Positions 52,418 to 56,081 of a stretch of DNA of 64,000 nucleotides are shown one piece after another. The notes under the pieces were generated by a model. The model saw only the letters and a program-made list of their open reading frames with translations. It was not told the origin of the DNA and did no database searches. The DNA is from Cyclobacteriaceae bacterium (GTDB lineage Bacteria; Bacteroidota; Bacteroidia; Cytophagales; Cyclobacteriaceae): contig JALSJD010000048.1 in NCBI GenBank assembly GCA_026989535.1, positions 24,702-88,701 on the forward strand, in the 5' to 3' direction. The translations under genes were made by a program, and so were the position numbers. How positions within the stretch are numbered: position 1 is the first letter of the stretch; each line of letters starts with the position of its first letter.

Positions 52418-52612
52418 TTTGTTATACGCGTTACAATATTATTAGCAAAAGTAAATATTTAGGAGGAACAAACAGAACCTGTGATAGATTACTGCTTTTT
52501 AGCTCCTGTTCATAAACGCCAATAAACAAAAATCAAATACCTGCCGACTGGCTGAAACCTCCATAATAAAAATTAAAAAAAACCTGCTAAGAGTTTGATT
52601 ATTAGATATTAA

Positions 52613-52650
52613 CCCCCATCAGAGTCCTCTGCGAGAGACTCTGATGGGGG
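52613..52650. terminator. Strong isolated hairpin, terminator-like
   Basis: CCCCCATCAGAGTC / GACTCTGATGGGGG, 14-bp perfect stem; not directly downstream of any called gene on either strand. Confidence 0.6.
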
Positions 52651-52790
52651 TACTTTGTCATAACTTTAGTTTTTTTTATAAAGTTAAACAATTGCGACAA
52701 TTTGAAAGGCATCCTTTTTTTTAGCAGACCCTCAATAATAGCCCAAGAAAAAGGTTCTATTATAAAAACCCTATATTTTTCGCAAACTTA

Positions 52791-52822
52791 TTTGGAAACA
52801 TTCTAAATGCTATTTAGGTTTG
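52791..52822 (+). promoter_or_regulatory. Bacteroidetes-type promoter of the OsmC-metY-metX leader
   Basis: TTTG (52791-52794), 20-nt spacer, TAGGTTTG (52815-52822); fits TTTG-N~20-TANNTTTG. Confidence 0.75.
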
Positions 52823-52835
52823 CACCTTCAATTAG

Positions 52836-52992
52836 ATACTCGTTCAAGAGTGTCCAGTTTATAAAGAAGCGTGGAGAGGCAGGCTCTAAGAAGCGCTAGC
52901 AACCACTCTGGTTCTGCATTAAAGAAACAGAAAAGGTGCTAAATCCTGATCCCAAGGAACGTTTATCAAGTGATAAACACGGGAGAATATAA
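52836..52992 (+). ncRNA. SAM-I (S-box) riboswitch-like aptamer
   Basis: Contains TTCAAGAGTG, GGAGAGGCAGGCTCTAAGAAGCGCTAGCAACC and AAGGTGCTAAATCCTG core motifs; P3-like TTCTG/CAGAA and P4-like GTTTATC-aagt-GATAAAC stems; sits upstream of metY-metX. Confidence 0.82.
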
Positions 52993-53002
52993 GTTGTATA
53001 TA

Positions 53003-53122
53003 ATGAAAAATTCAATTCAACACCAGTCAGGATATCAAAGCACCAACTTGTCGCTTTGCGATACCCTTCTTTCTTTTTTTAAGCACTCATATTATAGTAT
53101 GTGTTGCTGTAGCTGCTGCTAA
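53003..53122 (+). CDS. Candidate cysteine leader peptide, 39 aa (MKNSIQHQSGYQSTNLSLCDTLLSFFKHSYYSMCCCSCC)
   Basis: ATG 53003, TAA 53120-53122; 5 of the last 6 codons before the stop are Cys; lies between the SAM riboswitch and OsmC-metY-metX; too short for the ORF track. Confidence 0.6.
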   Translation: MKNSIQHQSGYQSTNLSLCDTLLSFFKHSYYSMCCCSCC

Positions 53123-53293
53123 GGCACACTTTTAAGTAAGGCTCTTAGCTTGCTAATAGTTTTTCTCCCTGTTAAAATGGGTGTAGAAAACACTATCGCA
53201 AAAATCCAATCTCTTACCGGCAGTTTGCAAAATTTGTAAACAGAGTTGTCGGTTCAATCTTTATTTTACACCATTTCAAAAATAAGTATCATT

Positions 53294-55055
<1,762 letters not shown>

Positions 55056-55056
<1 letters not shown>

Positions 55057-56081
55057 TGAACCAATTGCCGTCTAAAGTTTCTGTTTTTAAATATAACCAA
55101 GAGTTTAGTTTGGAGTGTGGCAGCACACTCCCTAAACTGGAGGTTGCCTATACAACCCATGGTACATTATCGGCCAATAAAAACAATGTAGTATGGGTGT
55201 TTCATGCCCTTACGGCAAATGCAAATCCTTTAGAATGGTGGCCGGGGCTAGTTGGTAAAGATTTCCTTCTCAACCCTGATAACTATTTTATTGTGTGTGC
55301 TAACATACTGGGTTCTTGCTATGGCACCACGGGCCCTGGTAGCATTAACCCTGCCACTGGGCAAAAATACGGCATGGATTTTCCTTTAATTACCATTAGA
55401 GATATGGTAAATGCACATGAGCTTTTGAGAAAAGAATTAGGTATTGATAGCATTTATTTAGGAATTGGGGGTTCAATGGGAGGGCAGCAATTATTAGAGT
55501 GGAATGTAATGAACCCTAGCTTATTTAAAAACAGTTGCCTTATTGCAGCTAATATGAGGCATTCGGCCTGGGGAATCGCTTTTAACTCGGCACAGCGGCT
55601 GGCCATGGAAGCAGACCAAACGCTACATTTTAAAGAGGAAGGGGCAGGCAGAAATGGATTGAAGGCTGCACGAGCCATCGCAATGCTTTCGTATAGAAAC
55701 GCCACTATTTATAGAAAAAAACAAACCGATACCGAAGATAAAATTGATGGTTTTAAGGCAGATAGTTACCAATACTATCAAGGCGAAAAACTATGTAATA
55801 GATTTACTGCACATGCTTATTGGTATTTAACCAAGGCTATGGATAGCCATAATGTTGGAAGAAACAGGAAGGCAATTCGTAAAGAACTTAAACAGGTAGA
55901 GTCCAATGTATTGGTAATTGGTATTAAAACAGATTTGCTTTTTTCGTATATAGAGCAAAAATTTATAGCCGCAAATTTTAAAAATGGCAAATTCGAACTA
56001 ATAGAATCGTTATACGGGCACGATGGGTTTTTAATTGAAACCGATAAAATTAGTGACCTTATTAAAGGTTTTTTGGATTAA
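55056..56081 (+). CDS. metX: Homoserine O-acetyltransferase
   Basis: VWVFHALTANANPLEWWPGLVGKDFLLNPDNYFIVCANILGSCYGTTGP; GGSMGGQQLLEW; TAATG overlap with metY. Confidence 0.94.

Follow-up and report, generated by a model that had tools for sequence, protein, structure and literature searches.

In mycobacteria, short upstream open reading frames (uORFs) with runs of Cys codons have been described as attenuators of cys operons (Canestrari et al. 2020, as cited in PMC9094748), and the Cys leader ORFs of Actinobacteria were first predicted in PMC1262725. In Rhodobacterales, the cysS leader uORFC-8-2 carries tandem Cys codons, and ribosome-mediated attenuation was inferred for it (PMC8632094). Two inputs meet at sulfur genes in other systems: the SAM-I riboswitch of Xanthomonas also senses uncharged initiator tRNA (PMC7270179), and the clostridial ubiG operon is under a Cys T-box and a SAM (S-box)-controlled antisense RNA (PMC2940859). 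S-boxes have long been noted in Bacteroidetes/Chlorobi (PMC2211319). In our literature search, Actinobacteria and Rhodobacterales were the only groups with Cys leaders, and it returned neither a Cys leader in Bacteroidota nor a case of a SAM-I aptamer coupled to a leader peptide; subscription papers were mostly uncovered, and the absence is unproven. To our knowledge no other leader-peptide amino-acid sensor has been described in Bacteroidota, and the one reported here would be the first.

The window, which is the whole 64-kb stretch of DNA that was analysed, contains a short ORF upstream of a sulfur operon whose genes serve to make homocysteine. The sequence-only reading had taken this ORF for a candidate Cys-sensing leader peptide in front of the genes for MetY and MetX and had regarded such a sensor in a Bacteroidetes Met operon as outside standard annotation; the searched literature gave no precedent for one in Bacteroidota. 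Its coordinates, its length and its five Cys in the last six codons agreed exactly with our check of the sequence, and the operon assignment was borne out by profile matches, the MetX match lying below the equivalog cut-off. The features concerned are as follows.

53003..53122, plus strand: leader peptide ORF of 39 codons, ATG at 53003 and stop TAA at 53120-53122 (sequence and conservation)
53102..53119, plus strand: Cys codon tract CCCSCC (TGT TGC TGT AGC TGC TGC), with the stop at 53120 (sequence)
53294..53734, plus strand: OsmC-like protein, first gene of the operon (PF02566, 9e-17)
53746..55056, plus strand: MetY, O-acetylhomoserine sulfhydrylase (TIGR01326, 670.8 bits against a cut-off of 495.1)
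55056..56081, plus strand: MetX-like homoserine O-acetyltransferase (best match TIGR01392, 5.6e-102, 341 bits, which falls short of the equivalog cut-off of 500)

The deduced product of the ORF is MKNSIQHQSGYQSTNLSLCDTLLSFFKHSYYSMCCCSCC, in which five of the six terminal codons are Cys. Such an ending (at least five Cys in the last six codons) occurred in none of 26,128 simulated ORFs of 15-70 aa, generated with a second-order Markov model from the window's own trinucleotide statistics. The window has 712 ORFs of 8-70 codons that begin with ATG; just three of them have at least three Cys in the last nine codons, and the leader ORF alone ends with five Cys in six. Two features expected of an attenuator are present, namely a short ORF whose cognate codons form a run close to the stop, and conservation upstream of Cys-metabolism genes (metY, cysH, sulfite reductase and ferredoxin-MetZ operons).

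The sequence-only reading had overlooked a SAM-I riboswitch that abuts the ORF, and therefore the leader probably has two inputs, not one. Its proposal of a Cys-sensing leader peptide is supported by comparison and incomplete in this respect, and the response to Cys remains an inference without experiment. The upstream features are the following.

52791..52822, plus strand: Bacteroidota-type promoter-like boxes, TTTG (52791-52794), 20 nt, TAGGTTTG (52815-52822) (inferred from sequence)
52856..52995, plus strand: SAM-I riboswitch aptamer, subtype B (RF00162 and family-specific model; 3' end by homology)
52856..52863, plus strand: 5' strand of helix P1, AGTTTATA (sequence and consensus alignment)
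52988..52995, plus strand: 3' strand of helix P1, TATAAGTT (sequence and alignment of homologues)

The Rfam model RF00162 matched 52856-52979 with 52.4 bits (E 3.4e-9, above the gathering score of 44.4; homologous aptamers score 48-98 bits) and was the sole Rfam match in the window; the same search gave no covariance-model match in the window to a T-box (Cys). The Rfam boundary is too short because the last stem of the window copy contains an additional hairpin, and the family-specific model R1, built from 36 relatives, covers contig positions 77557-77708, which are 52856-53007 of the window. CAACC and GGTGC, which we take to belong to the SAM-I ligand pocket, are invariant in 36 subtype-B aptamers and are both present here. 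The element is thus a SAM-I riboswitch by homology, while SAM binding and control of expression are inferred. The promoter-like boxes resemble what we assume to be the Bacteroidota consensus (TTTG / TAnnTTTG), so the transcript probably starts just about 25 nt 5' of the aptamer (predicted start near 52830). Further upstream, the window has a long near-perfect palindrome at 52612-52651 (CCCCCATCAGAGTC...GACTCTGATGGGGG, fold -35.7 kcal/mol), which is probably a terminator 5' of the leader. At the other side of the aptamer, the leader ATG lies 8 nt past helix P1, and the P1 3' strand sits 8-15 nt 5' of this ATG, inside the ribosome initiation footprint.

Compared with the mycobacterial polycysteine uORFs, the locus has in common a short ORF with a Cys run at the stop, a position 5' of sulfur-assimilation genes and the lack of a consistent intrinsic terminator, whereas those uORFs are leaderless and without a riboswitch and here an aptamer of about 140 nt precedes the ATG. 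They also belong to a different phylum, no sequence relationship has been demonstrated, and the unmasking of the ribosome-binding site proposed for them is unsupported here (open start, n = 96, prediction only). The element is not a member of the mycobacterial leaderless class, with the aptamer preceding the ATG and a start region that is open in prediction and stays so when stalling is modelled. Similar to uORFC-8-2, the window ORF has tandem Cys codons; however, uORFC-8-2 has two internal Cys codons and an intrinsic terminator, controls a tRNA synthetase and lacks a riboswitch. The Xanthomonas SAM-I leader likewise joins an aptamer with a second input that reports translation status, but there the tRNA itself makes contact with the expression platform, without a leader peptide, and the signal is Met, not Cys. 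In clostridial ubiG, Cys availability and SAM signals also act on sulfur genes, but through a T-box and an antisense RNA on separate transcripts, while the window leader has an aptamer and a leader peptide on one mRNA and no T-box.

We compared about 210 aptamer loci, drawn from 112 aptamer loci of related genomes, the leaders of 76 named metY loci and 30 phylum-wide loci. SAM-I aptamers occurred in 53 of 61 related genomes, and the SAM-I aptamers of Bacteroidota fall into two subtypes that differ in how P1 begins: subtype A (P1 CTTATC...GATAAG) stands mostly before metH and also before metB/metZ, and subtype B (P1 TTTATA...TATAAA) stands above all before metY, and also before cysH, sulfite reductase, a ferredoxin-MetZ-sulfite reductase operon, some transporters and TonB receptors. 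The closing pair of P1 is C-G in subtype A and A-U in subtype B, with a change from GAGGGA to GAGAGA alongside; this paired change may mark a tertiary contact. When the first ATG after the aptamer was taken without selection for Cys, the resulting ORF had at least three Cys in its last nine codons in 90/147 subtype-B leaders (at least two in 99/147) and in 0/61 subtype-A leaders, against a background of 0.57% of 10,606 short ORFs with at least three. Subtype-B aptamers with a Cys ORF precede metY, cysH, sulfite reductase and the ferredoxin-MetZ-sulfite reductase operon. At least one element of aptamer plus Cys ORF was found in 30 of the 61 genomes, and the named carriers include Chryseolinea, Chryseosolibacter, Pontibacter, Rufibacter, Cesiribacter, Hymenobacter, Mucilaginibacter, Thermonema, and Saprospiraceae and Lewinella MAGs. 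Twenty further phylum-wide loci outside the Cys-bearing groups were nearly all of subtype A without a Cys ORF. In the subtype-A family f26, several of the leaders L223-L225 and L227 share a well conserved short ORF of 26-31 codons (MKxESILYAGYELLNSIFEEN...), which starts about 40 nt past the model end, has no Cys tail, and could encode either a small protein or a further leader peptide.

The distance between aptamer and ORF also separates the subtypes. The offset of the ATG from the aptamer end is tight in subtype B (median 9 nt, 10-90% range 5-13), and the first ATG is scattered in subtype A (median 60 nt). The near-fixed distance in subtype B therefore puts the P1 3' strand inside the footprint of the initiating ribosome, and from this arrangement we infer that SAM binding would close P1 and block translation of the leader ORF. 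About one third of the subtype-B aptamers (Algoriphagus/Cyclobacterium group, Spirosoma) keep the ATG and have no Cys tail, so the riboswitch can work without the tail, and the existence of such lineages (Algoriphagus relatives, Spirosoma) fits gating of the ORF as the more basic function. Leaders of this kind include L054, L130, L141, L142 and L176.

We consider it likely that the leader is a two-input regulatory device, in which SAM gates translation of the leader peptide, the supply of Cys-tRNA decides on stalling, and transcription of the operon is set by the outcome. With SAM bound, the A/U-rich P1 would close and ribosome loading on the leader ORF would be blocked; with SAM low, the ORF, whose translation is itself inferred, would be read up to the Cys run before the stop. 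If Cys-tRNA were short, the ribosome would stall in the tract, the structured spacer between the ORF stop and the operon would refold, and transcription into metY-metX would be favoured; if Cys were plentiful, the ribosome would reach the stop and the attenuated form would prevail. The stalling step is borrowed from leader-peptide attenuation, and stalling on Cys shortage, the direction of control and the transcriptional output are all inferred, without expression, ribosome-profiling or ligand-binding data. Under SAM gating and Cys stalling together, SAM and Cys, the two end products of sulfide assimilation, would thus each act to repress the operon. Apart from its translation, the leader peptide probably serves no purpose.

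The region between the ORF and the first gene bears on the output. Between the ORF stop and a point 40 nt ahead of the first gene, the leaders are significantly more structured than shuffled sequences (mean z -1.41, s.e. 0.15, n = 90), and the start of the main gene is A-rich and open in prediction (accessibility 0.64, 96 leaders). A structured spacer together with an open gene start speaks for control of transcription over unmasking of the start. Which fold would serve as expression platform is inferred only, and in the window the candidates are the following.

53118..53149, plus strand: hairpin of GCTAAG (last Cys codon and stop) with CTTAGC (RNAfold with masked footprints; weak evidence)
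53156..53200, plus strand: second leader hairpin (prediction; the leader L112 has a hairpin at the same place with a different sequence)

The first hairpin was predicted with a ribosome held at the first Cys codon (3' arm 53141-53149), and a competing hairpin at 53135-53154 was predicted with a ribosome at the stop (RNAfold, masked footprints). GCTAAG/CTTAGC is kept in L112, the leader of a sister species. The terminator candidate of the window is weak, and its T-run is absent in L112.

Two more general candidates were rejected. A universal intrinsic terminator was not supported, as hairpin-plus-T sites were just moderately enriched (56% vs 30% at -9 kcal/mol), and a general hairpin of the tract with an antisense segment was confined to one clade, with the cross-locus control equal to own-locus pairing: pairing of the Cys tract to downstream sequence was modestly above shuffles, and the cognate tract was no stronger than that of another locus.

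The transcriptional step might instead be made by Rho. The ORF body is rich in C and poor in G (C 26%, G 15%, C > G in 96% of cases; main genes C 23%, G 24%) and seldom structured (3% below z -2). Rho must therefore be taken seriously as an alternative, in which the body is a Rho loading site shielded by translation, SAM causes termination by blocking that translation, and Cys supply modulates how far ribosomes shield the RNA. A composition bias is by itself not a rut site, however, and some leaders have clear intrinsic terminators, namely those of sulfite reductase L073, L083 and L284; we regard this version as possible and less probable than not. Translational attenuation as in mycobacteria, where the tract and a partner hide the ribosome-binding region of the first gene until a stalled ribosome frees it, has in its favour a like tract at like genes and a model cited for mycobacterial cys genes (PMC13236596). 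But the structured part lies well 5' of the gene start, and a modelled ribosome on the tract shifted the accessibility of the already open start region (0.64) by just +0.015 across the 96 leaders, and we judge this explanation unlikely.

Some loci depart from the common arrangement. Genome G041 alone has poly-Cys ORFs that lack a SAM aptamer altogether and stand at a TonB-dependent receptor (L252), a sulfite reductase (L284) and an AhpC/TSA-family gene (L287), and it is possible that these three form a Cys-only regulon; L284 also has a second Cys-containing ORF and an intrinsic terminator. Two sulfite-reductase leaders, L073 and L083, combine the aptamer with a second poly-Cys segment downstream, and in both a strong intrinsic terminator lies right before the gene. 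In L083, uORF1 and uORF2 lie at +9 and +161 from the aptamer end and the second ORF is CCMCCVCCCML, and in L073 the second Cys run has just a possible TTG start ahead. A genome-wide search for the pattern TGYTGYTGYTGY-stop was set aside; the roughly 50 loci inspected were nearly all frame noise without an ATG ORF, with three true leaders in one genome.

Returning to the proposed two-input leader, we found that its Cys codons are kept as codons. Runs of TGY (at least four TGY within 260 nt of the aptamer) shared the frame of the first ATG in 68 of 71 subtype-B cases, where one third would be expected, and no such run was present near any of 47 subtype-A aptamers checked. Loss of the frame or of the Cys tract in orthologous leaders was to have refuted the sequence-only reading; the opposite was seen, with the tract present in 90 of 147 subtype-B leaders of Bacteroidota. 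The synonymous-versus-nonsynonymous comparison it had suggested agreed, with pN/pS of 0.57 in close relatives and exchange of TGT and TGC in the Cys columns, where Cys was retained in 244 of 277 pairwise comparisons, 68 of them TGT vs TGC. Cys frequency has its maximum within the last eight codons of the leader ORFs. Outside the tract, the peptides (15 to 64 codons) cannot be aligned between families and belong to no Pfam or NCBIfam family; an unconserved peptide body is as expected for a cis-acting leader. This conservation pattern, read from alignments, is the mark of selection on the codons of a leader peptide and not that of a functional small protein.

A functional small Cys-rich protein, for example a metal- or sulfide-binding one, would agree with pN/pS below 1 in the closely related sets, but is very improbable given peptides that align only in their Cys tract, the absence of a Pfam or NCBIfam family, a tract always right before the stop and an ORF start tied to the aptamer. 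Equally remote is the idea that the TGY repeat is an RNA pairing element with an incidental Cys reading, for in one clade the tract does pair with a conserved downstream CAGCAACA, but the runs keep to the Cys frame of the first ATG, their changes are mostly synonymous at the third position, and tracts pair no better within their own locus than with other loci.

Met codons occur scattered within and ahead of the Cys tract in some leaders (such as L122, L140, L179 and L209), and Met makes up 14% of the non-Cys residues in the tails vs 4% in background ORFs. Met supply may therefore also be read, so that the leaders would respond to Met as well as Cys; this is a lead rather than a result.

As a combination the device is without precedent in the searched literature, and its parts are known: a SAM-I aptamer, and a leader that would act in the manner of a leader-peptide attenuator. 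The modules also occur separately, with the aptamer alone at metH and the Cys leader alone at some sulfur genes. Further, we think it rather probable that these leaders form a widespread class in Bacteroidota, in which a dedicated SAM-I subtype evolved to control ribosome access to a leader that counts Cys (perhaps also Met) codons and so makes a gate for SAM and Cys on a single mRNA, with the modules in separate use elsewhere and the whole forming a ribosome-run sulfur regulon. If this is true, the element would be a rare natural riboswitch whose output is translation of a sensory leader peptide and not of the gene itself, and these bacteria could adjust sulfate and sulfide assimilation to two end products with no transcription factor devoted to the task. 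A family of ORFs without a detectable database relative thereby becomes a testable regulon, and its recurrence across Bacteroidota suggests that sulfur assimilation is set there by reading two end products on one messenger.
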